Positions 1-61,700 of a DNA stretch of 64,000 bases are shown piece after piece; the stretch's first letter is position 1; every line of letters begins with the position of its first letter. The position numbers were made by a program, and so were the translations under genes. The stretch is taken from contig MDYQ01000502.1 of NCBI GenBank assembly GCA_003024175.1, positions 44,380 through 108,379 of the forward strand, given 5' to 3'. Below the pieces are notes generated by a model. It saw only the letters and a program-made list of their open reading frames with translations. It had not been told where the DNA came from and did no database searches. This DNA comes from Planoprotostelium fungivorum. Taxonomy: Eukaryota > Evosea > Variosea > Cavosteliida > Cavosteliaceae.

Positions 1-120
1 TGCGCGCCGGTGGTCTGCTCGATGATTGTTTCCTCACTGGAGGTGGAGAGTCATCATCGTCAGAGCCGATGGGACTGATTGACTTGAAAGGCATGTCGAT
101 GTGAAGCGCGGAAGCGTGGT
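1..120 (-). other. Open frame at window edge, possibly an exon of a neighbouring gene
   Basis: On the minus strand this stretch is open in one frame and reads as a Ser/Pro/Asp-rich segment (with SPIGSDDDDSPPPVR). It lies beyond the stop codon I assign to the acyltransferase gene at 163. It could be the first exons of another minus-strand gene that continues outside the window, or a C-terminal exon of the acyltransferase if the 163 stop is spliced out. The sequence does not decide between these. Confidence 0.25.
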
Positions 121-162
121 CCGGTTGTAAGGAGAGGAGAATTTACAACGCAACAAATGTCT

Positions 163-2500
163 TTATTGCTCGTAATCCTTTCTGGCCGTGTCGAATTGAG
201 AGTATCTCATCGTCATCTCTTTCATCCTCTGTCTCAGATCTTCTCTCTTCTTCTGCAAGTCTTTCGGTACCACCTATTCAAGTCACCTTTCCTCTATGAA
301 TTCTCATGTTCTCACCTTGTACAAAGACCTCAAGAAGCTCGTCGTGCTGTTCAGAGGTCTCTTGGCCACGGCAGTCATTCCTGATTGTCTTAATTCACAG
401 AGGTGGATGTGTACGTGTCGTCTGGTGACATAGAAGCACAATCACCTGTGAGGACCATGAAAAGCACCGCGAAGAAAGTGAAGAGGAATCCATAATGATA
501 CCACAGTAGAGAACCGATGATAGAGTAAGTCAACAGAGCGGATGCCATGGCTGCCACCATCTTGTATGTCAACTCCTGTTCTCGTTAAGTTTCTGTGTGA
601 CGATGATGATCCGAATCACCTCCACGATCTCGCCACGAGCGATGATGCTTCCCAATAATTTCGTTGCGATGGGAATTGGACTATGTCTCGTCACGATTCG
701 ATTGTGATTACATTACATCATGACGTAATGTAATCGCAGATGATGGATCAGATGATGGATCAGATCAGATGATGGATCAGATGATGGATCAGATCAGATG
801 ATGGATCAGATGATCGATGAACAGAAGGATGTGATGTGATGTCGAATGAGCCGACTCACAAGTTCAGGATGACACCGATGAGTGCGAGAGGCCACACGAC
901 GAAATCGTTAAAGAGGTGATCCACGAAGGGTTTCTTGTACTGATTCAGCTTCTGCACCTCCTTGTCTGTCAGTCCGAGAGCATCCAGAGTGTACTGATAG
1001 TCTTCCAGCTCCGTTCTCATCTGACTGATCTTTGCGATCTCGTCGAGATTCGTCTCTTCTTTTAGATTGGACAGGACACTCTGATATCCAACCAAGAACC
1101 TGAGCTGATGAGTCTTTTAGACAGTGAAATGGTCACCTGCGAGTCAATTCTACGTCGTATTTGATGTCTTGTTCATAAGAAGGCTTCATGATGTTCTTCG
1201 CCGTAGTCATCACTCTGTCATCGTAAGAGGACAGAAGATAAAAAGAGGAAGAGGAAATAGAGAGAGAAAAGAGAATATTGAAAGAGATAGAAAGAGAGAA
1301 GAGAAGGTAAAAAGTGAAACTAGAAAGAGGAAGAGAAGATAAAAAGAGGAAGAGGAAATAGAAAGAGAAGAGAAGATAGATGGATGGACGAGAAGATAGA
1401 GAGAATTTCACTTTAGAGTGGACCAATCGGGGGCGGTGATGGTGATTGACTCAAGTGACGCCTGGATGAACGAAGTCAATTCGGTCACAGCCGTCCACTC
1501 TTCTTTCTCGTATCTCTCTTTCCACTTGTCATCGATGACGATGGGCCTACCGAAGGAGAGTAGAACCTTCCTATGTCAGTCTCCGATGACACGTGATGCA
1601 TCCATCGGTCCGTGATGTGATGTGTAATGTGTCATCACACCCGTGACAACATCGTGTGATGCTGATGAGAGACTCACCTGACTGCGGTATCGATTGCGAT
1701 TCGTGTAGTTGAGGCCGACTGTGAGAGTGTAAGGAATGGAAGATGTGGAAGAAGAGATGATAGAGAGGATGTGACAGAGAGGATGCATGGATGTGTGGTC
1801 AACACCTGGAACGATGCGTAGATCCTGCTTGTCTTGATTGGATCCAGATCTGTGCTCCTTGCCGAAACCCAACGCGATTCTCGCCGTGCCCGTCTTGATT
1901 TTTCTAATGTGAGACACCATCTCAGTTGTCCCTACGTCTGTCATTCTTCTCTTCTAAACGGCTTCATGCGGATGTGATTTCACCTTCTGGAAATATGGCT
2001 ATAGCGTCTCCTGCATCGAGTGCCTTCCACACCTTCTTCTATCAACACGCGACGATGGATCGCTCTTCACCTCGCTGAACATGGAAGTATTGTTGAGGTG
2101 AACCGCTTCTGAACCGCCTCCCTCTTTATTTCCAGAGTCGGCAGCTCTGCATTTATTGTCAATAATGAGATGTGTCAGTATTTGGTACCTTTTCACAGGG
2201 ACTGCTTTTATCGCTTTGAGGATCGTCTTCATCACAGGCAGATGGAATAATTGATCTTTAGAGATGATTCTCACGTGACGTGAACAGTGAACCAGCACCA
2301 GCGCAGGATCGACGAGTGCATTCGGATGGACACTGGCAAAGATCACCTACATCAGTCTTCAGTTGTCTGGATCGTTCTGTCCATCTCACTGGTCCTTCCT
2401 TTGGAACATTCTCAAGGCCATCCACTTCGACCTGACTGAAGAAAGAGGACATCAACAGACTCGCCAATCCTCGAATCGCATTATACGGTAAGTCATCCAT
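163..2500 (-). CDS. Glycerol-3-phosphate / DHAP O-acyltransferase (SCT1/GPT2-like), multi-exon
   Basis: It likely transfers an acyl chain to glycerol-3-phosphate or dihydroxyacetone phosphate in the ER membrane, the first step of glycerolipid synthesis. The protein starts MDDLPYNAIRGLASLLMSSF near 2500. After a 43-bp intron comes the PlsC acyltransferase block FASVHPNALVDPALVLVHCS, which carries the HPNxLxD form of the HX4D motif seen in SCT1/GPT2-like enzymes. Then follow FKTG-like KIKTGTARIALGFG, RIVP with LNYTNRNRYRSQV, LSFGRPIVIDDKW and TITAPDWSTLK, all in the order of the yeast enzymes. The C-terminus has two hydrophobic segments (FVVWPLALIGVILNL and LLTYSIIGSLLWYHYGFLF) and a charged tail ending RKDYEQ at 163. 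Introns around 600-850 and 1231-1400 are long and repetitive. The join across 560-855 is unresolved. Fungal-type GPAT is the best call; substrate preference cannot be read. Confidence 0.85.
706..735. repeat. Perfect 11-bp inverted repeat with 8-bp spacer
   Basis: GATTACATTAC at 706-716 and GTAATGTAATC at 725-735 are exact reverse complements around an 8-base spacer. They sit inside a long intron of the acyltransferase gene, directly before a tandem repeat. The transcript could form a hairpin here, or the site could be a leftover of a small inverted-repeat insertion. No function is evident. Confidence 0.7.
736..818. repeat. Minisatellite of GATGATGGATCA-type units in an intron
   Basis: About six imperfect direct copies of a 12-base unit (gatgatggatca), some separated by an extra gatca, lie within the intron between the last two membrane-segment exons of the acyltransferase gene. 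This looks like slippage-driven expansion. There are no unique spacers between units, so it is not a CRISPR array. Confidence 0.7.
1231..1400 (-). repeat. Expanded pyrimidine-rich intron of the acyltransferase gene
   Basis: On the coding (minus) strand this intron is almost pure C/T, built from repeated CTCTTTC and TTATCTTC-like words, and is about 170 bp where most introns here are about 45 bp. The flanking exons join in frame (TAPDWSTLK to VMTTAKNIMKPSY), which defines it as an intron. Similar expansions occur in three other minus-strand genes of the window. Confidence 0.6.
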
Positions 2501-7873: not shown

Positions 7874-9392
7874 ATGGTCAGTTTTAAGATTGTCTTCCTC
7901 TGTACCATCACTTCCACTCTCGTCGCAGCACAAGTCTGGTGAGAACCGTTTCAGTGACTCGAGGTTTACAACTCTCAGTGGCTTCATCACATCATGCTCC
8001 GAGTGTATTGCTAGCAATTACTGTTGCTTCGATTCGACACTAGTAAGTAGATCTGAAGATGTTTTGTTGACGAGCAGCAGAATGTATGCATCACGAAATT
8101 TAGTGGCTTCCCGTGCAACTCTCAATGTCCTTCCTCTACTGGAAGAACCACAGGTACAGACGGTGGAAGCACCACAGGAAATAATGGCGGTTTTGTAGAT
8201 ACTGAGGATAGCACAAGCGCCACCGTCAGCACCAGGTATTGAGATCATCCTTCACTTCACAATTGAACCCACGGAGACGTAACGTTGATATTGATCGATG
8301 GTGGGCTAACCAAAATCCAGAGATGGAGAACCGAAAAACTTCATCGACATCAAGCTCACCAAGATTGGACAGGGTATCTTCTTTGCCGCCGGAACCATCG
8401 CCATCCTCCTCTATGGCCTCTGCATGTTCAGAACCATCACTAAATTGAAGAAGAATGAACCATACATCCGCGATCTCCTGGACTACGAACAGAACCCACA
8501 TCCAGCCACGATGGAAGATGCCATCCACCCCGATCTGATGGACGTCTTGAAAGGGTGCATCTTTCTCCACGTCTGAATCACTCATCCCCTCCAGATCACT
8601 GACCTCCATCGAGTTGAAAGATCTGAGATGGGTCGGCGCTTCTTCCGTCAGAGGCATCCGCGGCATGAAGAGCCCAGCCTTCATCGCTTTCACTCTCTTT
8701 GGTGAACATCAACCCCAATACGTCATCCCTCTAACCGTCTCAGTCACTCTCGGCATCACATCGACCTTCGTCTCCTTCATCCTCCTTCCCGACATGAAAG
8801 CGGTTCTCCCCGTGATGTTCAACCTCTTCTTCCTCTGCATCTGTCTCGCTCTCATGATATGCTTGCGAGTCGTAGGACCCGCCAACGCTCTGAAATGTGA
8901 CGTCTATGCCATGACTTCCAATCATGCGATCGTCTGTCGCGGTAGGCGTAGGGGTTACGAGGTGAGACGTTCTTCCGATCTATCATGAGACCTCATCGCT
9001 GACTGCTGCAGCTGTTGAGAATCCCCTTCTGCTCGGGAGAGCACAGGATGTCGAATCCATTAGAGAGCAAAAAGATGTCGAACTACGGCTCGATCATCTT
9101 TGCGGAAGAACTTCACGACAACCATCAGTCTTCTCACAATGCCCCTCATCTCAATGTTCACCGTCATCTTCACAACATCCCCCGACACCACGTGCATCAT
9201 CAGAGGAAGTTCAGAGTCGAGAAGATCGGGTTCTGTTCTGTCTCGAGATTCGACGTGTGTCGCCAGACCTTCCGCCACCTGCACGCTCACGCTCGAAGTG
9301 GCATCCATAATGGCACGGAAGTTATGAGCAAGGAGACTACCGCGAGCATCTCGACGCTTTCGCTTGAAGACAGAAATATATTCTTATCATAG
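7874..9392 (+). CDS. Membrane protein with signal peptide, PSI-like cysteine-rich ectodomain and several TM helices
   Basis: The chain begins with a signal peptide (MVSFKIVFLCTITSTLVAAQ). A compact cysteine-rich module joined over two introns follows: CGFITSCSECIASNYCCFDS, then VCITKFSGFPCNSQC. Its spacing resembles plexin-semaphorin-integrin (PSI) domains. A Thr/Gly/Ser linker (TGRTTGTDGGSTTGNNGG) leads to a membrane helix (IGQGIFFAAGTIAILLYGLC). Further exons give FIAFTLFGEHQPQ, YVIPLTVSVTLGITSTFVSF and VLPVMFNLFFLCICLALMIC, so about four helices in all. The His/Ser-rich cytoplasmic tail after the 8960-9011 intron runs to the stop at 9392; its reading frame is the one that preserves phase, but it could be mispredicted. 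A role as a surface receptor or channel-like protein is inference only. Confidence 0.6.
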
Positions 9393-9666: not shown

Positions 9667-12600
9667 ATGGATAAATCACCTCCTGTTGGAGGCAGAACGG
9701 GGATGTCTTCACATAGACCTGTAGAGCGTTCTGCCTCCGCAGATACTCCACCTATCACAGACACCCATTACGAGTCTCTAGTAGGCATCAGGAGTATGAA
9801 TTTGAAACCTGCAGTTGGGACGAGACATGAATCTGATCCCACTTCGAAAGGTAAAGATCATTTTACCGGTGATGATATGCTGATTTATACAATGATATAC
9901 GGCTTCGAATGCAAAGTATCTCACAATCTCACAGGAGCAGTGAGCCATTCAATCGATACGAGGTCTCGAGGACCAGGCTCAGCCGACTCAGTGAGAGAGG
10001 TGAGACGCGGGATTATCGATAGACACCGTTCAGACTGATTCCATTCAGTCCAAAGGTTGGCAATCATCGACGCCAAACTCTTCATTCGTTTCTCAATCTC
10101 CTTCCCATCTTCTCCCCTCTCCTTCTCTCTCACAAGTGTCGCCCGCTCTGGGCTCCACCGAGGGACCTTACTCTTCCGCCGCAGCCATCCGAGTGAGTTC
10201 CATACTCTATATCACCCATCGTGATGATAGCGACAGGCTATGAAGTTGACACCCATGAACGACAACAGTGGAATGGTGCCCCTCACGAGAAGAGCCAACG
10301 GGGGAAGCAACATCGTGATGGGATCGGCACAGGCGAGCCCGAGAGCATCTCCGCGGCCGACGGCCGATCCAGCATATCCCATCATCCGATCTCCGAGTCA
10401 AGGATCGACGCAAGAGACGCATTACAACTCCCTCTTAGAGGTCAGAAACGCCACCGGCGGCGGCAGCACCATCTCATCATCGACGACTTACACGTCTCTC
10501 TCTGGCGTCCAGAATGCCATCCACGCTCAGAGTGCTCCTCCACCTCGCCCGCCGGCGAATCGATCGTATTCGAGAGAAGCCATCATTGCGAATGAGCCAC
10601 ATTACGAATCACTCATCGAAGTGCGATCGGCTACATCGAATCCATCTTCCCCTTCCATCAGCCTCGGTTCTTCATCTCCCAACTCTCCCACACCTCGATC
10701 ACCCCTGCAGAGAAGTTATTCGAAGGAGGGTTCACCTCATCATCAACCACAGAACGCTCACTCTTCGTCCCACCATTATGGTCCCATGTCAGGGTTACAG
10801 AATATTCCCATCAATCGTGACGCACAGCCACCCGTCAGGGACCTGACTCCACCTTCTTCATCATCTCACTATGGGCCGATGGGAGGCCTGCAGAACGTAC
10901 CGATCAACCGTGAAGCTCAGCCACCCATCAGAGAATCATCCTCTTCATCATCTCACTACGGGCCGATGGGAGGACTGCAGAATATTCCGATCAACCGTGA
11001 AGCTCAGCCGGCCCCTTTCTCGATGCGCAGCAGTGGTACTCGTGAAGTCCATTCACCGAGAGAAGTCGTCTCGTCGTCTCACCACTATGGGCCCATCCAG
11101 GGACTACAGAACATTCCCATCAACCGTGACGCACAGCCGCCCGTCAGAGAATCGAATCCATCGTTATCTCACTACGGGCCGATGGGAGGACTACAGAACA
11201 TTCCCATCAACCGTGACGCCCAGCCGACCCCTTACTCGATGCGCAGCAGCGGCACCCGTGAGGTCCATTCACCGAGGGAAGCCACCTCATCATCTCATCA
11301 CTACGACGCACAGCCATCCGCGAGAGAAATCTCCCCCTCCACACATCACTACGGCCACATCCCAATCAGCCCGAGAGAAGGTGCTTCACCCGTCAGCCCG
11401 AGAGACAAGACTTCACATTACGGTCCAATCGGCGGCATGCAGAACGTACCGATACAGAGGGAGAACCCTATACCAGCGAAATCTCACTATGGAGTCATGG
11501 GCAGTCACTTGTCTCAATCTCCTCCTTCAGGCAGCCCCGCGGGTGGCCACCACTATGGCGTCATTCCAAACACGATACAGCAGACCGGTTACAATCCAAA
11601 CTTCACGTCGGGTAGTCCTCCTTCACTCCTCCAATCGAAACCGAGCAACACGCAATACGGTGCGATACCTCATTCCATCCGTGAAGAGCAGAAGGGTTCG
11701 ACACACTACGGTGCGATACCTTCTTCACCTTCAGGAGGTTCGAGTCTCTTTGCAGAGTGAGTCAGTGAGAGAGGAGAGGAGACTGACGATGTCGAACAGA
11801 GGCCTCCATCGACAGCTGGCCACGGGAGGAAGTGAGTCGAGAGAGTGAGAAGAGAGGTTGATCGTTGTACAGTGAAGAATGCAAACTACGGACCGATACC
11901 AGGGAAGAAGAAGGAGAGACAGTGAGTCGAGGGCCACATTTATCTGGAATTGTATAACAATAGATATTACGTTTATCTCTCGTTAACCTCTCGTCCAGAC
12001 ATTCCTTTGATTCCCCTGCTATCGAGAGGAGGTGCGATGTCTCTCTCATTCTTGTCTGTCTTATCTCAATTAAATCGACCCACAGATATGAATCACCGTG
12101 CAATCTTATCCCCGCTGTCAATCGGTGTGTGTCTCTATCATAATGCACTCCATCGCTTCAATGCATAAACATTGATTACGAGGATTTCCATGACTGACAA
12201 CTTTTCAGAAGGGCGATCGTTAATTGGAAACTGAACGAGAGGGGAGACAAGATGGTGGAAGTTACAGACGACACCGGTTCGTCCCACAATGTCTCGCTGG
12301 TGAATCTATTTCTCGATGAGATGTGATGCCAACGATCGTCAGGCGACGATGTCACCGTCCACCATGGCCAAGGGACTGCTGACCGAGCTGAACAACCGAA
12401 CGAATTTCACAGAGTTCACTTCAGCCTCGGAACAGAAGGTGAGTCACACACATCATCGAATCGTCCACCTTCTACATCTCACACGTATCTATCTACTTGT
12501 CGTATCTACATCCATCAACGATGAACAGGAGAAGAAGGAGACAATGATCGTCAATTGGTTCCACGACAGCGACGATAACAAACACAAATTCGAGGTGAGA

Positions 12601-15600
12601 GAGAAGAAGAGGAGAGACGTTAAAGCAGAGAAGGTCACACCGGCCAAAACTCCGGAAGAGATCAAGAATTACATTTTCCAAGTGGCTCAGAAGAATCGAT
12701 GGCAAGTGTGTGACCCACTAGGTGACGAGACAGATGACATCATACCTCCGATCGAGATGTCGTACGTACGGATGATTGACGGAAGAACAGACGCGGAGGC
12801 GTCGGAGCCGGGAGATTTCGCATTACGTATCATCGGAATCAATTATTGCATCACATCAGAGAATACCTCCGTGAAGAGAAATCACGTCTACGCTTGCTGC
12901 AATAAGAATCTGGTCAGGCCCACCTTCGAGTTGGTCAGCAGAGAGAGGATCAAGTGCATGATCTCGTCTGATAACACTGAGGTATCTCCCATCTCTATTC
13001 TCCTCCGTTAACGATGAACAGTTTTTCCGTACAGCAGTGAACACAGATTTAAATACATACAACCAGATCTGCACGTTGATTGGAAGGGGCTTAGACACGT
13101 ATTACGGCTTAGACGACCCAGAAGTCATCGACAGCAGAGCGAAGATCACCCACGCCAGGTTATTTGAAATCCAACAGAGGTCCGAACTGTCCATACAAGA
13201 GAGAAATAACATGGAGACGTTGGCCAGGTGTTACATCAGCGGTGAACCGAAACCTGACGGTGAGAGATGAGAGATAGGATGGATCTGATGACATCAGTTG
13301 TGCCCGATCAGATCGAAGTCAAGTGCTGGTGGCAGGATGCATCGAAGAGTGTGGCGTTGTCCCCTCACTTCACCATACTCGATCTCAAGTGTACCATCTT
13401 GAAGAAATTTGGTAGGGCCGTGCCTGCCATGCTCGATGCAGACCCTTCCGATTACGCGCTGAAGGTGAAAATCATCGATGTCGCGTCACATCGTCGATGT
13501 CTCGTCGCTCATCCACACATCACCCTCGATCGTCACGTCTTCCTCTGAAGAGTACAGGTGTACGGAATGAACGAGTACCTCGCAGCAGATTGGATTCCTC
13601 TATTGAAATACGATTACATCAGGAGATGTTTAAATCAGAGCACAGTCATCGAATTGATGTTGACCGAATCATCTCTCATGCCGAAAACACATCTGACAGA
13701 AACCATCGAGCCCACCATCTCTGAGTTGGTCATCGCAGAGAACTACATCGAGAACTACCAGAAGCCATCGTGCGTATCCATCATCTCTCATCAAATCATG
13801 AATCATCGAATCATGAATCGATGTAAAAGTTGACGATGTGTTGATGAAAGGATAGGAGTGATCTCGATCACAGTGGAGATGCTTCGGAATTGAGAGTGGA
13901 AGTGATGGGTGTGACCGGAATCGAAGACAAACCGATGAAAGACATGGCACCCGATCACGTCAAATGGGTCTATCTCGCCATCGAGGTACATGCACATCCC
14001 TCCGCATCCATCAAAGATTTCGATCGATCGACATCGACATCATCCAACCTAAATCGATCAGATCTACCACGGTGACGTATCCATCGCTCCTCCCGCTTTC
14101 AGCACGGGCCGTCTCGTAGCCAAGGACATCAATTTTTTCGAGGTAAGACGAAAAACTTTTCGCTTATTCAACGACACAGACCCTGACGATCAATATCCCG
14201 ATCAAAGACGTTCCAAAGGGGGCCAGGTGACATTTTCTCACGCGAGAAGATTCTGAACGATGTGTCAGAGCCTCTATGACCGTTTATCTCACCACCCAAG
14301 CTCCCGTCGCGAAGAAACAGCCTCTCCTCTCACAAGAGGTCGAATTAGAGGAGATTGCGGTGAGTCATACAAGATGAGAGAAGGGTGACAATTTCAGGTG
14401 GACGAATACACGCCGGAGGCCGTGATTCCCATCACGAACGTCAGCCCGAGAGACATCCCCCTCGGTTGGGTCAATCGTTCCGTCTTCGACTACAACGGTG
14501 TCCTCCGCCACGGTCCGGCCACGCTAAGACTGTGGCCCGACTCGAAGGCCAACCCCATCGGTACCTGTGCCTTCAATCCCATCAAGAATTCCCTCACGGT
14601 TTACATCGTATCACCCAAACCGAAACAGGTGACGTACATTGATTCTTGTTTGTCGCTGAGAAAGATAGTTTTCGAGGAGGGCGAAGACGGAATATAAAAA
14701 GATGGAGGTGAGAGGGAAGAGAAGGGAGAGACTGAAAGGAAATAGGCCGATTCACACTTTGAACCGGTGCAGCCGGATGTCGTTCGGATCAAGAGTTTAG
14801 TGTCCAGAGATCCACTGCAGGAGTTCAACAAGGAAGAGAAGAGCTTAATGTGGCAGTGGAGAGGTACGTCATCCTATCTTCTAAATGATTTCCAATTCAT
14901 ATCGAAATGCATCACACCATCGTTCACAGAAAATGCATCGTTCGAATGAGAGAGAGTGAAAGAGAACAGATTGGATCAGGAAACAACATCCAGATGCCCT
15001 ACCGAAAATCTGTCAGTGTGTCGACTGGTCTTCTCCTGAACAAGTGAGGGACATCCACTACCGTCTAAAGAGGTGGCCGCCCCTCCCCGCCGGAAGAGTC
15101 CTCGAGCTGTTGGATTCACAGTACCCGGACGATAGAGTCAGAAGGTTCGCCATCTCTTGTCTGAGACGTCTGTCCGATGCAGAGCTGTCGGTCTACCTCC
15201 TCCAATTGACCGCCGCACTCAAGGTACGTACGCGTGGATTTCGTGGAAATTTGACGGAGATTTCAGTACGAATCGTATCATGATTCGGCGTTGAGTGCGT
15301 TCCTCCTGCAGAGATGCATCGCCAACAGTGGAAGATTAGGCTTTCAATTCTTCTGGCACTTGAGATCAGAGATGCACGTGGCAGAGATCTCACAGAGGTA
15401 CGCTCTACTGCTGGAAGGTTACATCAAGGGCTGCTCGCAGGACCACCGGCAAGATCTATTGCGGCAGTGTCAACTCATCTCCGCATTAGAGGTGATGATC
15501 TGAGATGATGTCATCACCGATCGCATCTGATGAGACGTAGAGCGCCGCGGCGGCTATCAAACCGTTGGCGGTACCAGAGAAGGTCCCCACACTGCAATCT

Positions 15601-16824
15601 CATCTGTGGAAGATCTACAAATTTCCCGTACCGATACTTCTGCCCATCGATCCTCGGTTCAGGGTGAGAAGAAGAGAGACAAAAGACATTGACGAGAGAA
15701 GGTGAAAGGCATAACGGTGGACAAGTGTAAATATATGGACTCCAAGAAACAACCGCTGTGGCTGGTTTTCGTAAACGCCGACGCAGGTGACAACTCTCAT
15801 TCTACGTCGTCTCTCCCCATTCTTATTCATCCATCTCTCCATGCATTCGATGAGAGAGAATAACGAGAGAACAGGGGCGAAACCAGTGAACATCATCTAC
15901 AAATTGGGAGACGATCTCAGACAAGACGTCCTCACCTTACAACTCATGAGGCTCATGGACTCGTTCTGGAAGACGGAAGGATTAGACATGTGCCTCTCTC
16001 CTTACCGTGTCACTTGCACGGGTGACATGAGTGGAATGATCGAAGTGGTTCCACACGCGGACACGACGGCCAACATTCAGACGTCAGCCCTCGCCGTATT
16101 CAAATCAGATCCGCTGGTCAACTATCTGAAGCAGCACAATCCATCGGCTGATTCCTACGAGAAATCGGTGCAAAAATTTGTCCGATCGACGGCGGGATAC
16201 TGTGTGGCCACACACGTGTTGGGTATAGGAGATCGACACAATGTGAGTCTCTCTCTTCACTCCATCGATCGTCATCACCTCCTCTGTTCCACATCATGAG
16301 AAATATATCGTTCGGCCTGACTGTCTTCAGGATAACATCATGTTGACTCGAGAGGGTAAACTGGTTCACATTGATTTCGGTCATTTCTTGGGCAACAGGA
16401 AGGTCTTCCTTGGATTCAATCGAGAGAGAGCACCCTTCATCTTCACGCCCCAATACGCCGCAGTGATGGGTGGCAACGGTTCGGAGAATTTCACCGAATT
16501 CGTGCAGCTGTGTGGCAGAGCCTACAACATCCTCAGAAGCCACGCCAACCTCTTCTTCGTTCTCTTCCAAATGGTGAGGACCATCTCATGTCTCACATGC
16601 ATCACGATATGATGTGGATGGAGGGCTGATGAGAGTAGATGTTATCAACGGGTATCCCTGAGCTACAAACGAGAGAAGACATTCTGTACCTAAGAGACGC
16701 CTTCGCGGCGGACAAGAACGAAGAACAGGCGGCACAGAAATTCGCCGAGGACATTTTTGCGTCTTTGAAGACGACGAGCACACAAATTTCTGATTTCGTT
16801 CACATTTTGGCTCATCCGAAATAA
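9667..16824 (+). CDS. Class I phosphoinositide 3-kinase catalytic chain with N-terminal Tyr-repeat extension
   Basis: It phosphorylates the 3-position of PtdIns(4,5)P2 at the plasma membrane. Residues 1 to about 640 are a low-complexity Ser/Pro/His region with repeated SHYGPMGGLQNIPINREAQP modules (separate entry). After phase-preserving short introns come an adaptor-like region (IVNWFHDSDD, TPEEIKNYIFQVAQKN) and the Ras-binding domain (VPDQIEVKCWWQDASKSVAL; MNEYLAADWIPLLKYDYIR). A C2 domain follows (PLGWVNRSVFDYNGVLRHGP), then the helical PIK domain (ICQCVDWSSPEQVRDIHYRL). The kinase domain has IIYKLGDDLRQDVLTLQLMR, catalytic GIGDRHNDNIM, HIDFGHFLGN and the class I activation loop FNRERAPFIFTPQ. 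It ends SDFVHILAHPK. Total length is about 1,850-1,950 residues, against about 1,070 for a bare class I chain. The phase carries through from the repeat exon, across introns at about 11,770-12,210, into the kinase exons, which supports one fused protein; a long intron near 11,920 is the weak point. About 28 introns. Confidence 0.85.
10410..11760 (+). repeat. Tandem H-Y-G-P-M modules in the PI3-kinase N-terminus, with a 216-bp higher-order duplication
   Basis: At least fifteen Tyr-centred modules occur here, with one more upstream (THYESLVGIRSM, near 9760) and one downstream (NYGPIPGKKK, near 11885). The core form is SHYGPMGGLQNIPINREAQP. The Tyr codons of the core copies fall at 10777, 10870, 10957, 11086 and 11173. 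The spacings of 93, 87, 129 and 87 bp show that the 10870+10957 pair is duplicated as the 11086+11173 pair with a 216-bp (72-residue) period. Outer copies are degenerate (HYNSL, TYTSL, HYESL, HYGVM, HYGVI, QYGAI, HYGAI). Near-identical DNA in the core copies indicates recent expansion kept in frame. Confidence 0.85.
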
Positions 16825-39166: not shown

Positions 39167-40356
39167 CTACGCTTTGTTGGGTTGGGGGACCTACTGGGAT
39201 GAGCACATGAATGATGAAGAGAAGGGAGTTGATAAAAAAGAAAACGATAAAGAGAGGAATGGTATAGAGATGAAGAGTGATAAAGAGAAGAGTGATGAAG
39301 AGGAGAATGGTAAGAATGAACTTACCTTCAAAGAGAAATCAATGTGGGGTACACCTTGAGTCAAGGAACCCATGGAGATGATATCGACGCTATCATCAAA
39401 GTATTCAGCGACGGTGTTTCCTGTGACACCTCCACTCGCTTCGATCAAGAGAGTGGGGAAGAGGGATTTCAATCGTCTGGCTGTCTTCTTCAACTCTTCA
39501 GGTGCAAAGTTGTCCAGCATGACAATATCCGCTCCTTCCACATTCAGAGCACTCTACAAATTCATTGTCACCTGCTTTGGCTGCTTCTTCTGCGTCTTCA
39601 AATGTCTGGCACTCGACGTCGATCTGATGCGAGTTTAGACGATGATTTGCGTCACAGGAACACCTTCAGAGCGAAGCCTCCACCTCTCTTCGCCTTTTGT
39701 ACTGCCTTCGTGATGCTTCCGGTGCTCCAGACGTGATTATCCTGCGTCTCTGTCATTTGACATTCCGGAATGAATGCACCTCGTACCTTGAGCATGATCA
39801 TCGAGGATAAGTCCATTCGATGCGGGTCGCAACCTCCAACCATGATGCCGTACTTCTCCACAGCTCGAAATCCAGGTGTCGTCTTTCGTGTTCCGGCTAT
39901 GCACCCCCGGTATCCTTCGTTTGTTACTACCGACATTCTCAAAGATGTTTTACCTTGTGCATCTGCTGTCTGACGAAGTGCTCTAGCTCTGGTGGCTATT
40001 CCACTGCAACGAGCGAGTATGTTGAGTGCTGTTCGTTCTCCAGCAAGTATCTTCCTCGCCTCTCCTCTAACGATTGCTACTGGAACTCTCTTCTTCTCGG
40101 CTGACGTTACATCGATGTGTGTCCCCTCTTTGATCATCCACTCTACACTACATCCAAGGTAGGTGAAGACTTCCTGAAAAAAGGTACGTCCAGCCAGAAC
40201 CCCATTCTGCTTGCAGAATAGAGTCGCGACTTCATTTTTGTCCCCTACGACAAAACCTCCATAATCGAAGGATGGAATGTCTTCCTTCAACCACAGTTCT
40301 ATGGTTGACTTGTCCCATTGAAATGTGGTCAGATGCTCCAATTGATCTTGTTCCAT
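39167..40356 (-). CDS. QPRT: Nicotinate-nucleotide pyrophosphorylase (quinolinate phosphoribosyltransferase)
   Basis: It converts quinolinate and PRPP to nicotinate mononucleotide in de novo NAD synthesis. One long exon (40356 to about 39670) covers the N-terminal sandwich domain and half the barrel: IELWLKEDIPSFDYGGFVVG, KILAGERTALNILARCSGIA, CIAGTRKTTPGFRAVEKYGI (the G-TRKT-P-R substrate-binding signature) and MVGGCDPHRMDLSSMIMLK. After introns come IDVECQTFEDAEEAAKAG, DIVMLDNFAPEELKKTARRL, LLIEASGGVTGNTVAEYF and VDIISMGSLTQGVPHIDFSL. A long repetitive intron (about 39190-39330) is followed by a tiny last exon encoding VPQPNKA. Expected catalytic Arg, Lys, Glu and Asp positions all appear present. 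It is divergent from the HemK gene with only 68 bp between starts. Confidence 0.93.
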
Positions 40357-40424
40357 GTTGTCCTGTGTTGAAAATTGTAATTTCCGTTTTCAACTTTATT
40401 TTTTGGATCGTTGATCTGCGATCG

Positions 40425-44385: not shown

Positions 44386-47300
44386 TCATCGGGAGTGTGT
44401 GAGAAGGGACCTTGAATTCGATCTCCTATTACTGCTCCTGCCCGTTTTCTCAAAAGGCATCTGCTGAGATCCATAGAAGCCACCCTCGACATCAGAGTAT
44501 GCAGAGGATGACAACAGAGGTGAATCCACAAAATAACCTCCAGTGGTATCATGCATACTGATAGATATTGAATATTCACTTTTCTGTGGTGTAGTGCTCA
44601 TGATTCGGTTTGGTTTTGTCCACACTTTGATTATTTCTGGCGGTAACAGTGCTATTGCCACTGACAACTGCTGGCATTAATTTATGATAAAAGATGACTT
44701 CTCACCAGTACACTGAGATAGAACCTGGAGTCTCTACATAACTCTGGGAAGACACCATACAGAGAGAAGGAAGGAAAGACAAAGCCAAGGAACAGAATGG
44801 ACAGAGCGTACAGCAATAGAGTGCCCCACAGAATGAAGTGATTGGCTAACGTGAGCGTGCTGCACTGGTCACTCCACTGACCGAGACGCGTTGCTCCCTC
44901 TCACCTGGATTCAAAGACAATGGTGAGGGTATTGACAATGATGAGGGAAGTGTAGACTGTCATCGATAGAGGGTTCAGCCCCGAATCACCGTGACCGTCC
45001 TATGAAGATGAGTGGAATGAAAAAGCGATGACTCACCGCCTGGATGTTGTAGAAGGCTTGGGCGCAGATGGACCAACAGACGAGAGACTGGAAGAGGGCA
45101 CGAATGACCCATCTCATGAAACTGGCTGCAGAGAATTTCGACCCAGATTGAACCTACACACTCAGACGGAAGAACAACATGAGAGAATGAGACGATCATC
45201 AATAGGAGGATAAGAAGATGGGAGGATAGGAAGATGAGATGAGGAGATGAGAAAATGAGAGGATAAGAAGATGGGAGGATAAGAAGATGGGAGGATAAGA
45301 AGATGAGAGCATAAGAAGATGAGAGCATAAGAAGATGAGAGAATAAGGAGATGAGAGAATAAGGAGATGAGAGAATGAGAGGATAAGAAGATGAGAGATT
45401 AGAGGAATGAGGCACCTCTCGGTAAAGGGAGGGTCTAGATAGAATGAGATTTGCGGGGAGATCTCTGTCGAGGACGTAGAGGATGATGGGTATTCCAGTG
45501 AAGACGATGTTGTGACCTGTGAGGAAGAAACTGTTGAAGAACGTTTGGGCTGAGAATCCATTGAAGAAGCCGTATCTGCATCGTGTCATTCGGTGCATAC
45601 GAGAGAGACTGACACTAATTGGATGAAGCAGATGAACATGGACTTGTAGAAGCAGTACTGAGCCACGAAAGACGTTCTGATGTACGACCATCTTCCGTGG
45701 AGGAGAACGAGGCGTCTCAGATGGTGGAATTCTGATACAGTCAACAAAGGCTCTCGATGTCAAAGGATGAAAGGGACTGCTATGTACAGATGAAAGGGAC
45801 TGCTGTGTACAGATATAATAGATCTCACTTGAGATGGAATAATCGGCAGCTCGTGAGGCTTGCATGCCTTCTCTTCCCGTGATACCGACACCAATGTGTG
45901 CCTCGTAAATCATGCTGACATCGTTTCCTCCGTCTCCAATAGAGAGGGTCCTCTTGTCCTTCTCTTTGATCATGGCCACCACCTATCTCCTTCACTCCTC
46001 GTCTTCCCATCTCTCTCACCTTGGCCTTCTGTTGGGGTGTCATCCTGCAGCAGATCACAGTGTGTGCAATGAGTCCGATCTGACAGAACTTTGGATAATC
46101 GGATAAGAAGGCCAACGTCTTTCCCTCGATGATGACAGAGATCTCTCTTCCCTCTGCCTCCAGCTCTTGGGCCCGAAGATAAGCCTCGCCCAGCGATTGG
46201 ACTGCCTCCATCTCCGTCTCACCTCGGATGCTGATCAACTCCCCTGCGTTCTTCAGTCTCTCGTCTCTTCTTTCTTCTCACCATCGAGGGGTGACTGAGA
46301 GATGAGATTGCAAGAGGTGGCGATCTGTATGGCAGTGGAATACTTGTCTCCAGTCAACATCCACACGCGGATGTTGGCATTGCGAAGTGCTGCAATGGTC
46401 TCTGGCACTTGTTCTTGGAGCTTATCTTCGATGGCCGTCGTGCCCACCAGAGTCAGCTCCCTCTCTATGCTCTCGTACACTTCGGCTAGTTTTTGCTGAC
46501 AATCTTCAATTTCATCGATAGGATCGACTTACAGCTCGGGCGTCCATTGAAGTGTTCGCTTGGTTGAAGATGGCGATCCACTTTTCAAAGACCTCCGGTG
46601 TGATCTCCCTCTCGGCCACACACAATGTCCTCAGTCCCTCCTTGGCAAACTTCTCCAGTTCATTCTGCACGCTGTCCATGTGATCTGTGGATGTCACGAA
46701 CGAAGAAGAGAAGAGGGAGCACCTTTCGAGTAGAGACGAGGGAGGATGGCCTCGTCAGCTCCTTTGCACAAGAGTCGAATCCTTCCGTTCGATCGATCTC
46801 TCAGGATGACAGACATTCTCTTCCTCTCCGAAGTGAACTCCAACACGTACAATCGCTCGTACGTCTCTTTCCTCCCGTTGACCATGATCTCTGCTCTCGT
46901 CACTCCACACCTTCTCCATCACACCCACCGATGTTGTTCGTGTCCGAATGGATGAATTCAATTTTCATCTCGGCGGCGGCCTTGACGAGAGCTTCCTCGT
47001 CGGGTGAAGAAGCTTTGAAGTGTCCGTGATCACCCATCTCCGTCCTTTCGATGTTCACTTCCTCTTCCTTCGAATGGTCCTCACCCTCTGGCAATGATGA
47101 CACTGTGACACAGAGACAAGATGCGGAAGAGGTCGATCGAGTAGAGATCGTTGTCGGCGATCTTGGCCTTCAGTGCTTCATCCTCGGATATAGTGTGGCA
47201 CTGCTCTCCGTACACTTGATCTTTCACGGTCACCCTCTTCAGGGACATGATGTTCTCCGTCAGCGTTCCTACTCTCGTCACTCGCTGATCGTTTCTATTT

Positions 47301-55652: not shown

Positions 55653-56219
55653 GTATCAATGGTCCCAGGCTACCGTTTACGATCACTCCACGTAGACCCT
55701 CTCATATAACTTTCCTCAGAGAATCTGACCGGTGCCACGGACAACAACGAAGAGCACGAGATATATTGAACGAGATGAAGAAGCTGCACGAAAGAGATTG
55801 GAAGGTGACACTGATAATCTAGTTGGACAAGGACAACGAGAACAAGAACAAGGAGGGCAATCGTCAAAGAGTGTGGGGAGAGGAAAAGAAGAGATGTAGA
55901 TTGGAGCAGCAGCTCGCCGACAAAGAGAATCACAAGAATCATATAACGTACCCGTATGTCCGCGTATTAGCTCGAGTTTTCGAAGTGAGCACTCCTGCCT
56001 CCTCCCCACCAGATCTTACGCTATACACAGATAGATGTGCGCCAGAAGAACATGGGAAGTAGACAATCATTTGAATCGAAACTCTCTGATGAAGTGCAGA
56101 ATCGCCTGGATCGAACTATTCGTAATAAAGCTGTTGATACACACAATACAAAGTCAAAAGCTGAAGATGTCTATTCTCTGCTATCGTATCGTCTTGGTCT
56201 GACCCCACTCCTCCACTGA
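55653..56219 (+). CDS. Coiled-coil protein, start uncertain
   Basis: In-frame blocks read RARDILNEMKKLHERDWK, then after an 18-bp-apparent or longer intron LDKDNENKNKEGNRQRVWGE and EKKRCRLEQQLADKENHKNH with YPYVRVLARVFE. An intron of about 45 bp leads to IDVRQKNMGSRQSFESKLSD, EVQNRLDRTIRNKAVDTHNT and EDVYSLLSYRLGLTPLLH, ending at 56219. The C-terminal two exons are convincing; the N-terminus is not resolved. No family is recognised. The last 38 bp overlap the 3' end of the convergent LRR gene as annotated. Confidence 0.45.
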
Positions 56220-57040
56220 ATTATGGCATACAAACTGCAAGGCCAAGAGACCATTCACAGATTCCAGGTCAGTGGCGGTATCCTTGATGTTGAGCCACCT
56301 GAGGCTCAAGGAGATCCTCCCCGTGGCCATGTGACTCAGTGTTCCATTGTTGATCCAAGTGTATTGCAGGTTCAGCGTCTCCAGCTTGAGGTCATAGAGG
56401 GCTTCGAATCGGTTGACGGAGGTGGCAGAGATGTCGAGATTGACGAGAGAAGTGAGTGCAGCGAGGGGATCGATAGATGTGATGGCGGAGGAGCAGAGGT
56501 TGAGCTGTCTGAGGTGAGGGAGGTGAGCCAGGGGTGAAATGTCTTCCAGTCTGCCAGTGTGTGAGAGATCGAGGTCCGAGAGGAGGAGCAGGTTTTGAAT
56601 AAATAAGATGTTGTCGACAGGGCTGTAGGAGAGGGAGAGGTAGTTGAGTTGAGCCAAGGTAGAGAGCGGTGAAGGATCTTTCAGGTGGATGCAGTTGGAG
56701 AGTCTGAGGAAGCGAAGGTTGGTGAGGCTGGATAGTGCTGTACAATCGTCCCCCTCGTTCGCATCCAGACTCAATCGCTCCAGCTTCCGGCATCGGTGAA
56801 GCCCTTCCAGTGTCTTGGTACCCGAGGGAAGATACAACTCACGGAGGGAGGTGCAGTTGCACATCACTCTCCACACCTCCTCCGAGATGAACTTTCTAAT
56901 AGGCACCTGACCGTGTCACTCTTCTTCTTTTCTTCTCCGCCTCACTTCTCGAAAATCGATGGAGGCCCAGGGCATTTCCAAGATGTCGAAGATCAATTGT
57001 GTCTTGGTTGTCTCATCTAAAGATATCCGTGGTATTGGAA
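56181..57040 (-). CDS. Leucine-rich-repeat protein
   Basis: A first block near 57030-56950 (DETTKTQLIFDILEMPWASI) is joined over a roughly 43-bp intron to VPIRKFISEEVWRVMCNCTS, then eight or more LRRs of about 22 residues: LRELYLPSGTKTLEGLHRCR, LERLSLDANEGDDCTALSSL, LRFLRLSNCIHLKDPSPLST, LNYLSLSYSPVDNILFIQNL, LSDLDLSHTGRLEDISPLAH, LRQLNLCSSAITSIDPLAAL and LVNLDISATSVNRFEALYDL. The L-x2-L-x-L-S-x-(T/C)-x-I-x-D-(I/L) pattern is SDS22/internalin-like. The start codon is not identified. The N-terminal block resembles the lead-in of BTB/F-box-less LRR proteins of amoebae; the role is unknown. The stop at 56181 overlaps the neighbouring convergent gene. Confidence 0.65.
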
Positions 57041-58737: not shown

Positions 58738-61700
58738 TTATAGACCATTCTGCACAGACGGTGGGATGGGGTCTAAATAGGTGACCTGCACGGGGTTGGA
58801 GAAGGGGATTGGCTCTCCGGTAACGATGAGGGGAGCAGCGGTTGGGACGGTATTGATGGATGCGCTGGTGTTCATCGTGGAGACAGAAGATGAGGTGTAG
58901 GCCCTCGACTCCTGCTTGATCATCTCCTTTGCCTTCTTCTGAAGCTCCTTCTCCATTCTCCTCTGAGCTCGTGTGTCTCTCTTGAACTCGTCCGTCCTAT
59001 CTCTGTCAGTCCTCTTCTTCTCGTTCCTCTCACTTGTGACGTGCGGCCCTGTTGATTCTCCTCTGAATAAATAAGTCGTTGATGCCTTGGGATCCCCTGA
59101 TACCGATCTGAAGATCATGCGTCAGTTCGACTCTCCTGTGGGACTCACCGAGGCCAAGTTCTCAGCAAAGATCTTCTCCAGTGACTTCCTGATGCGAGAC
59201 TTGAGGAGAGCGAGGGCGACGGCGCCGACGAGCTTGTGCTTGTGAGCGTCGAGGGTGATGTCCACCTTGTCAATGCCACAGATGGCCCTGGAGAACTCCA
59301 TCTTGAAGTCCTCTCCCTCGGTCAGATCGGCGTACCACTCCAAGAAGATGGAGATTCCGTCTCCGTCAAAGTCCATGGCCATCCTTCCTTCATCTGATAC
59401 TCTGGGGAATGTCTTTCGGTGGAAGTAGAAGTCGATGTTCCTCACGTGCATCCTCACTCCAGAGATGATCACCTGCATCCATCAGTCATCCCCTTCGTGT
59501 GAGAATGTCTCACGCACCTGGAAGTGGGAGCGTGTGTACGACTTTCCTCCCTCGTTGAGGGCGAGATTCATGCCGGTTTCCATGTTGAGCTGGATGTTCT
59601 GAGGGAGGATTTCGGCCCCACTGAAGATGAGATTCCTCGCTGCAAAGTCGTATTTTGGGGTGTATCCCTCGATCTGCGGGACTTGAATGTTCTCCAGCTG
59701 CTTGGAGATGAGAGGAACGAGGAGGTAGCGAAGCTGAGCGGCCGTCTCCTGGAAGACATAGAGGGAGGGTACACCGTTGGAGAAGAACATGTCGTCTGAC
59801 AGCTGACCGAATGCGTCAGCCAGTGCGATGCGATCGGGATCGTGCTTGATGGCCTTCATGATCCTCTTCGTCTCTTTGCTGGTGTTCTGCAACACCCTCT
59901 GGTACCTCTCAGACTTGACGATTGCCCTGGCTCTCTCGATGAGACGCCTCGACTCCTGCACACTCGCTTCGCTCTCGATCAGAGCGGGGTTACTCCAGAG
60001 GGTCTTGGCGTAACGGCGAAGATCTTTGATCCAGATCCTTCCCTCTTGGTCGTTTCTGAGAATGTCCACCAGAGCTTCCAAGTTGTTCTGTAACTCATCC
60101 AACTTGTACCCAGAAGTGAATCTCTCGATCAATTCCTTCAAATCCGCCCAAGCCTTTTGGGTCTGTCTCTGTCAGCGTCGTTCATCCCTCTCTTCACCTC
60201 TTCGTGTTTGTGGATCTGCTTCAACTCGGTGCCGGGTTGAGTGGACAGCATGTCCGATGTGCGGTCCAACATCTGCTTCAGGATGATGTATAGACTGTGA
60301 GCAGAAGCTCTGAAGTTTGCGTTCTGTCCGAATCGAGCGAGGACCATTCTGAGTCTCTTGGCGATCCTCTCCTTCTGCTCCTCCAACTCCTGCGCGGACA
60401 TCTTCTCTCTGTCACCTCCCTCCATTCCTCTCCTCTCACCTCTTCGGAGGCCACATTCACATGTTCCACAGGTTGAGCGACCTGGACTAGAGTGGGCTGG
60501 TTGATGACCACAGGCTGGCCGGTGGTGGGTTCGATGACCACGACAGGCTGGTATGCAACTTGACTCTGGGAGACACTGTTGTCCCCCTTAGCAATGTCTC
60601 TGACCTGCTGTGAGAGCTGGTTGAGCGATGCACCCTGCTGAAAAGAGTTGACGACGCCACTGAGGTCTCTCCTGTGAATGGATGAGTGGAGGAAGGAGAA
60701 AGGAGACTGACTTGAGGCTCTTTTGCTTCTTCTTGAGACCCTTTCCCAAGATGTCGTTGAGGGTCTTGATGGATTCCACGATGAGAGATCTGAAATCAGA
60801 GCTGGAGAGCAATTCGTTGGCAACGAGACGAGCGAGAGCGATGGAGGACTGAGTGAAACCGAGATCGTTGGAGGGTACAGGATTCAAATGGTTGACCAGC
60901 TCTCCCGCGTGCCTCATGGTCTTCTTCGATTGTTCAAAGAGGTGTTGCAGCTTCTCGTCGTAGTTCTTGGCCAAGATGAACTGTCTGGTCTTCAGTAGGA
61001 CGTCCTGGAAGGAGAGGGAGATCTGTTGTCCCTTGGGCGACATCCTCGTTCCCGAGATATTCCTCTCTGTCTCTAAGGCGAGAAGAAGATTGTCGATGGT
61101 CTGGATCATCTGGAAGTTGTAGGGCATGTCTCCGTGGGCCATGGTGCTGATGGCCTCTACCAGAGGGTTCACGTGGTTACCGTGATGTTGTGTAATGATG
61201 ATCTCGTTCCTCCTCAAATCAGCCGCTGAATCGCGTGACAGTGACTCACGTGGTTTGATTTCTGGTCTCATTTGGGTTTCTCCACCAACCAGAGGTCAGA
61301 GCAGGTACGACAACACCCTGTTTAGTGGCCGTACTATTCTCAAACTGGGCTGTTCTGAGAGGTGCAGTGTTGTAGCTGTTGGTTCCTCTTGGTGTGGTGG
61401 CCTCGGGCGCGATCTGTCCTGGCTGCTCGATGATTGGCTGCTGAAGTCCTTGCGCTCCTGTAGCGAGAGAGGGAACATTGTTGACGGAGGCTGAGGCGAT
61501 GAGAGGTTGTTTGGAGGTGGTGGTAGTGGTGGTGACTGTTCCAGTGTTTGTGGTTGTCGTGGTGAAGGTGGTTGTGGCAGTGTTGGGCAGGTATGTTGGT
61601 AATGTGTTGGCCCTCGATCTGGTTCCTGTGGGTCCATTGGGGTCGTAGGAGGCTAAACTGGCCTGGACGACACCCTGCTGCTCGACGGCAGTGGGAAAGA

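Follow-up and report, generated by a model that had tools for sequence, protein, structure and literature searches.

The window, by which we mean the whole 64,000-nucleotide stretch of DNA analysed, carries a tandem array of 17 tyrosine-based motifs just upstream of a predicted class I PI3-kinase. With a probability of roughly one half, we read the array as a lineage-specific phosphotyrosine docking scaffold, more likely encoded by a gene of its own than forming part of the kinase. The gene would then encode an intrinsically disordered scaffold. Its repeated [ST]-H-Y-G-x-[MIL] modules would be phosphorylated on tyrosine by tyrosine kinases of the organism itself, and SH2 proteins could dock on several phosphorylated copies at once and thereby assemble a multivalent signalling complex. 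Such a scaffold would be analogous to the substrate domain of p130Cas or the tails of IRS proteins, but it would use a lineage-specific Y-G-x-hydrophobic(-Pro) motif and do without p85.

The Array and Its Protein

The array gene, whose GT-AG introns of 41-84 nt were picked by eye, probably encodes a disordered protein that repeats a tyrosine-based motif 17 times (Table 1). Seventeen of its 23 tyrosines stand in Yxx[MILV] (five with M, eight with I, four with L and none with V), whereas 5000 composition-preserving shuffles averaged 3.5 and never exceeded 10; the original prediction had put the number of Tyr-centred repeats at 15-17. Exon 4, with a coding log-odds of +49 in the array frame and negative values in the two other frames, holds the copies YNSL, YTSL and YESL, six core units of the form HYGP[MI]xG[LM]QN[IV]PI[NQ]R and the outer copies YGHI, YGVM, YGVI, YGAI and YGAI; the variants YESL, YGVI and YGAI, listed earlier as outliers, are thus all present. 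The description of most core copies as HYGPM holds for the core itself, with HYGPM in four of the six units and HYGPI in two, but does not extend to the array as a whole, where YxxM is the minority form (5/17) and its number lies within the range of the shuffles (mean 0.55, maximum 6 among 5000). What is kept in the core is a unit of about 18 residues, reaching well beyond YxxM alone; the C-terminal copies have lost this long unit and retain [HQN]YGx[IM]. The residue before the motif tyrosine is His (13 copies), Thr, Gln or Asn in 16 of the 17, and Pro at +4 together with a hydrophobic residue at +3 occurs in five.

The protein is rich in Ser, Pro and Gly (Ser 118 and Pro 84 of 665 residues), and its charge-hydropathy value of 0.408 against a boundary of 0.421 places it, by a narrow margin and from composition only, on the disordered side. 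As in substrate domains built for tandem tyrosine docking, many similar tyrosine motifs (17) thus lie in a region that its composition predicts to be disordered. No Pfam family scored over its cut-off in the 665 aa, and hence no SH3, PH or PTB domain and no cargo or membrane domain. Among approximately 5.8 billion proteins, homologues were found neither for the whole protein (E up to 1, with the 7993 top-ranking candidates scored), a search that Ser-rich words may swamp, nor for the array core at residues 305-560 (5460 candidates scored, E up to 10). A match on contig C439 (E 0.06) was dropped, its frame being charged, rich in Lys and Glu and without the motif.

Table 1. Positions of the array gene, the neighbouring PI3-kinase and the NYG[TA]-hydrophobic-P clusters (window positions, except for clusters, which are given on their own contigs)
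Feature	Position	Strand	Remarks
Array gene, whole	9667-11925	+	6 exons, 665 aa; splice sites by eye
Array gene exon 1	9667..9850	+	ATG 9667; first copy THYESLVGIRSM
Array gene exon 2	9935..9999	+	splice sites by eye
Array gene exon 3	10049..10192	+	splice sites by eye
Array gene exon 4	10237..11756	+	six core units and outer copies
Array gene exon 5	11800..11831	+	splice sites by eye
Array gene exon 6	11873..11925	+	last copy NYGPIPGKKKERQ; stop TGA 11923-11925
Tandem duplication within array	10858..11280	+	216-nt
Stretch between array and kinase	11926..12208	+	without coding signal; either intergenic or intronic
Possible first PI3-kinase exon	12209..12299	+	ATG 12252 in CAAGATGG, context shared with ATG of array gene
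PI3-kinase exon	12343..12438	+	after 43-nt intron 12300-12342
Class I PI3-kinase, remaining 18 exons	12529..16824	+	N-terminal region, RBD, C2, helical (PIK) and kinase domains; stop TAA 16822-16824
Cluster C17	5996-6487		five NYG[TA]-hydrophobic-P copies
Cluster C173	127936-128459		six NYG[TA]-hydrophobic-P copies
Cluster C286	6296-8382		twelve NYG[TA]-hydrophobic-P copies
Cluster C463	171134-172130		ten NYG[TA]-hydrophobic-P copies

Selection on the Repeats

The duplication within exon 4 provides a comparison free of any motif filter: across the 69 codons of the 216-nt pair, pS is 0.48 and pN 0.095 (pN/pS 0.20, Fisher p 2e-8), which shows purifying selection, the peptide being kept while the DNA drifts. 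The six core units give pS 0.71 and pN 0.15, though these were picked by pattern and the choice is biased toward conserved residues, and for two shorter pairs of neighbouring repeats, compared together with their linkers, pN/pS is 0.58 and 0.74; the units are retained as peptide, the linkers less so. Within the core units, GLQN[IV]PINR is conserved as strongly as HYGP[MI], and the selected feature may therefore not be an SH2 ligand.

The Neighbouring PI3-Kinase

The predicted gene downstream of the array is a class I PI3-kinase, as originally proposed. Its model comprises 19 exons from 12349 to the TAA at 16824, with a further exon likely, starting at 12252 or 12209. The RBD, C2, helical and kinase domains follow one another in class I order, with Pfam matches all over cut-off (PF00794, 47.5 bits; PF00792, 51.1; PF00613, 183.3; PF00454, 207.7), the nearest solved structure is p110 beta (506.5 bits), and the named relatives among the matches listed include dictyostelids and Pelomyxa, in keeping with an amoebozoan origin. 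The p85-binding domain PF02192 gave no Pfam match in the kinase at E up to 1. By eye only, a likeness is seen between the exon at 12529-12981 and the N-terminal region in homologues such as P0003. The nearest relative, P0001 (60 % identity), aligns from inside the N-terminal region and is therefore uninformative on the junction between array and kinase. An internal duplication of the kinase N terminus, suspected from IVNW occurring twice, was rejected, BLASTP giving no alignment.

Related Motif Arrays in the Genome

Similar arrays occur elsewhere in the genome. Among 99 predicted proteins of at least 150 aa, the motif-richest after the window's own is that of locus L038, a single open frame with seven copies of YG[STA][IL]P that adjoins SH2 matches. 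A pattern derived from this example, NYG[TA]-hydrophobic-P, has 37 matches in the genome, compared with three for the reversed pattern; four are single, and 33 fall into four clusters. Each of the arrays of C17, C173 and C286 follows, downstream on the same strand, a pair of SH2 matches at a distance of 432, 530 and 812 nt, respectively. For three of four clusters to lie beside such a pair by chance has a probability of approximately 1e-7 if the 79 SH2 matches of the genome are taken as independent and randomly placed; C173 had been found via its SH2 match, and excluding it leaves two of three at approximately 3e-5 (by hand). Matches and arrays are linked by proximity and strand only, any splicing there being putative. 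Pro at +4, characteristic of the arrays beside SH2 pairs, occurs in only five of the 17 window motifs, which counts against our reading. The fourth cluster, C463, has none of the 79 SH2 matches nearby; its last eight copies are exactly 57 nt apart. The arrangement suggests that the lineage may possess a home-grown phosphotyrosine docking code.

Two of these clusters also have a match to the Cbl EF-hand-like domain Cbl_N2 over the cut-off of 22 (C173, 25.1 bits; C286, 34 bits). On the minus strands of L038 (1845-2177) and L032 (1635-1907), the Cbl EF-hand-like domain (PF02761 over cut-off) is followed by two SH2 matches, and we regard both loci as possible Cbl-like tandem-SH2 genes. A genome search with the tail of C173 returned only C173 itself.

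Within 325 kb made up largely of SH2 and kinase loci, at least three YG.[LIMV]P motifs occur in three ORFs (window, L038 and L062), whereas five substituted motifs reach that number in no ORF of the same 325 kb. The L062 frame (3-2270, minus strand, on contig C140) is open for 756 aa and has about nine copies of the SHY[GA]x[MIF]P type among NNVDxRTLSPPPxRP repeats; the array adjoins a Sel1-repeat exon. HYGx[IM]P has seven matches in the genome against one for the reversed pattern, two of the seven in the window array, one within the C140 array and one each, in open frame, at C49:54819 and C439:55928; those on C116 and C390 are not covered by any frame of at least 90 aa on the strand of the motif. 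A wider pattern of this type gives 17 matches against 6 reversed and is clustered only in C140 (2) and the window (3); C49:128155 is a single motif copy.

The Phosphotyrosine Toolkit

The assembly searched (36.86 Mb, 471 contigs) contains families of phosphotyrosine writers, readers and erasers, in keeping with the SH2 proteins and tyrosine kinases that the original prediction ascribed to amoebozoans. The counts are of matches, not genes: 79 for SH2 (E up to 0.001; 0 of 14 prokaryote controls), 77 for the exact tyrosine-kinase signature HRDLA[AST]RN (reversed pattern, 0 and 0) and 43 for PTP, a family that also matches in three of the 14 prokaryote controls. Identical matches are found on different contigs, the two best PTP matches for example, and alleles or copies may therefore count twice. 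For p85, no iSH2 match in the genome exceeded the cut-off, the best of three reaching 19.8 bits against 31.5; at the loose level of this search eight of the 14 prokaryote controls also match, and the search could overlook a coiled coil that is diverged or split by introns.

The original prediction had drawn on YxxM as, in animals, the docking site of the PI3-kinase regulatory subunit, p85. We reject such a switch as the main reading of the array: the YxxM form is confined to five of the 17 motifs, the genome yields no iSH2 over cut-off and the kinase no PF02192.

Alternative Explanations

The original prediction joined the array in frame to the kinase as one protein, and the main competitor to our reading keeps that junction: the array would be the N-terminal extension of the PI3-kinase, made from one transcript through an intron at 11922-12208 or through a pair of introns flanking a small exon, and SH2 proteins or an SH2-bearing adaptor would recruit the enzyme directly, replacing the arrangement in which p85 brings it to a receptor. 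The in-frame junction finds no confirmation, the array frame ending at its TGA and the three scored pieces of the following 283 nt having negative coding scores in all frames. Fused models are nevertheless possible in phase. A donor-like GTGAGTCG at 11922 overlaps the array stop TGA 11923-11925, just as the exon 4 donor at 11757 overlaps a stop; a direct splice from 11922 to 12209 is in phase; and the bases upstream of ATG 12252, 12209-12251, have a small positive coding score (+2.5). The splice would, however, need a 287-nt intron, longer than all 23 introns picked by eye (37-106 nt), and of 31 introns deduced from split domains chosen by hand only one reaches at least 200 nt, and that one may hide an exon. 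The two-intron version fares no better, as its acceptor at 11999 scores -7.6, below the acceptors of all 23 introns, and its small exon has a negative coding score. A self-trained gene finder whose splice sites were set by the introns of the PI3-kinase recovered most kinase exons but fragmented the array exon. It did join array and kinase, favouring fused models over two genes by 3.4 to 9.4 nats, but one fused path, judged from exon lengths, leaves exon 6 outside the NYGPI frame and the other requires a 3-nt exon, so that these margins mean little. At 326 nt, the gap comes close to the median spacing of 356 for 24 predicted genes, although that prediction had itself merged array and kinase, and the start context CAAGATGG is common to the array gene and the kinase. 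Long N termini are not unusual in the family, at least 400 aa preceding the first aligned residue in 61 of the best 120 of 1000 homologues; if the count starts instead at the first residue of the kinase itself, an extension of at least 400 aa is found in 19 of the same 120 (median 158). When the extension was sought in related PI3-kinases, as had been suggested, none of these 120 had at least three YG.[MILV] ahead of the residue where its alignment begins, and a fusion would therefore be peculiar to the lineage, as far as the list reaches. Taken together, we consider it more likely that the array is a separate gene just upstream of the PI3-kinase than the N-terminal part of it, and hold the fusion to be a tentative but serious second choice.

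Other explanations would leave the gene where it is and deny the motifs their role as SH2 ligands. All 17 fit the Yxx-hydrophobic form of sorting motifs, and the long conserved core suggests a partner larger than an SH2 pocket; the copies might then be sites for adaptor binding of the clathrin-adaptor type, or some other linear motif independent of phosphorylation, the link with SH2 being coincidental. We find this unlikely in view of the lack of any Pfam match over cut-off in the array protein and the Y-G-x-hydrophobic-P arrays that adjoin SH2 pairs in three of four clusters. More improbable still is that the array is a low-complexity Ser/Pro-rich repeat expanding by slippage, with tyrosines of no function. 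The Ser and Pro content, the 216-nt tandem duplication and the failure to find homologues would all fit such an origin, but the synonymous sites are heavily diverged around a peptide unit that is kept, and even the outer copies retain the Tyr core. A docking scaffold thus remains our preferred reading of the array.

Comparison with Known Systems

The substrate domain of p130Cas carries many YxxP copies that are read by the SH2 domain of Crk. In p130Cas (BCAR1), this domain is described as disordered, Pro-rich and tyrosine-phosphorylated (PMC3983058). The array resembles it in placing many tyrosine motifs in a Pro-rich region predicted to be disordered, and differs in that the motif is Y-G-x-hydrophobic, not YxxP, and no SH3 or other Pfam domain over cut-off accompanies it; no homology was found between the two. 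Adaptors of the IRS/GAB type present multiple YxxM sites to p85, and the array likewise has multiple Yxx-hydrophobic sites, some of them YxxM, with a link to PI3-kinase by gene position; unlike these adaptors, it has YxxM in a minority of copies and no PH or PTB domain, and its genome has no iSH2 over cut-off. The kinase itself shares the order of RBD, C2, helical and kinase domains with p110 class I PI3-kinases, amoebozoan ones included, but has no Pfam p85-binding domain, and the upstream tyrosine array is absent from the best 120 of its 1000 homologues.

Ligands of the c-Cbl TKB domain are given as (NX/R)pY(S/T)XXP (PMC2943896). The Pro at +4 of this form recurs in the NYGxPhiP arrays, two of them next to Cbl_N2 and SH2 matches, but these arrays have Gly at +1 in place of Ser/Thr and Asn at -1, not -2. 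In the window array, Asn at -2 or Arg at -1 occurs in none of the 17 motifs and Pro at +4 in five; with this requirement unmatched, the likeness to Cbl ligands is a lead only.

Among amoebozoans, Acanthamoeba likewise has tyrosine kinases, PTPs and SH2 proteins, its genome being credited with 22 PTKs, 12 PTPs and 48 SH2 proteins (PMC4053784), and that of Physarum with 4 tyrosine kinases and 18 SH2 proteins (PMC4758236). The 77 kinase-signature matches here, duplicates included, exceed the 22 kinases reported for Acanthamoeba, and the portions of PMC4053784 drawn on here describe no motif arrays. In these portions of both papers, amoebozoan phosphotyrosine signalling is treated mostly by tallying kinases, phosphatases and SH2 domains. 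Among the literature matches listed, at the level of titles and the beginnings of abstracts and with few subscription journals covered, we found no tyrosine-motif arrays on a PI3-kinase or in amoebae. Conserved tyrosine motifs beside SH2 matches would offer a concrete test of the ligands of amoeba SH2 domains, and if the array were joined to the PI3-kinase, it would provide another route from tyrosine kinases to PIP3, one that needs no p85 subunit.

A broader and more speculative picture, which we think rather unlikely as a whole, would have the lineage use an alphabet of its own, Y-G-x-hydrophobic(-P), written in long disordered arrays. Cbl-like tandem-SH2 proteins would each bear ligands of their own in the tail and could therefore be linked head to tail, forming polymers or condensates driven by phosphorylation, and the class I PI3-kinase would be plugged into this network via a fused or paired array gene and not via p85.

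Genomic Surroundings

The gene upstream of the array (window 8125-9392) has hydrophobic, probably membrane-spanning stretches and a SNYGSI motif near its C terminus; a Pfam search with two of its frames was without a match. Further along the window, on the minus strand, are a quinolinate phosphoribosyltransferase (39652-40389), the C-terminal domain of a phospholipid-translocating ATPase (44975-45982), leucine-rich repeats (56181-56915) and, at 59482-60171 and 60588-61295, a HAM1_N domain.
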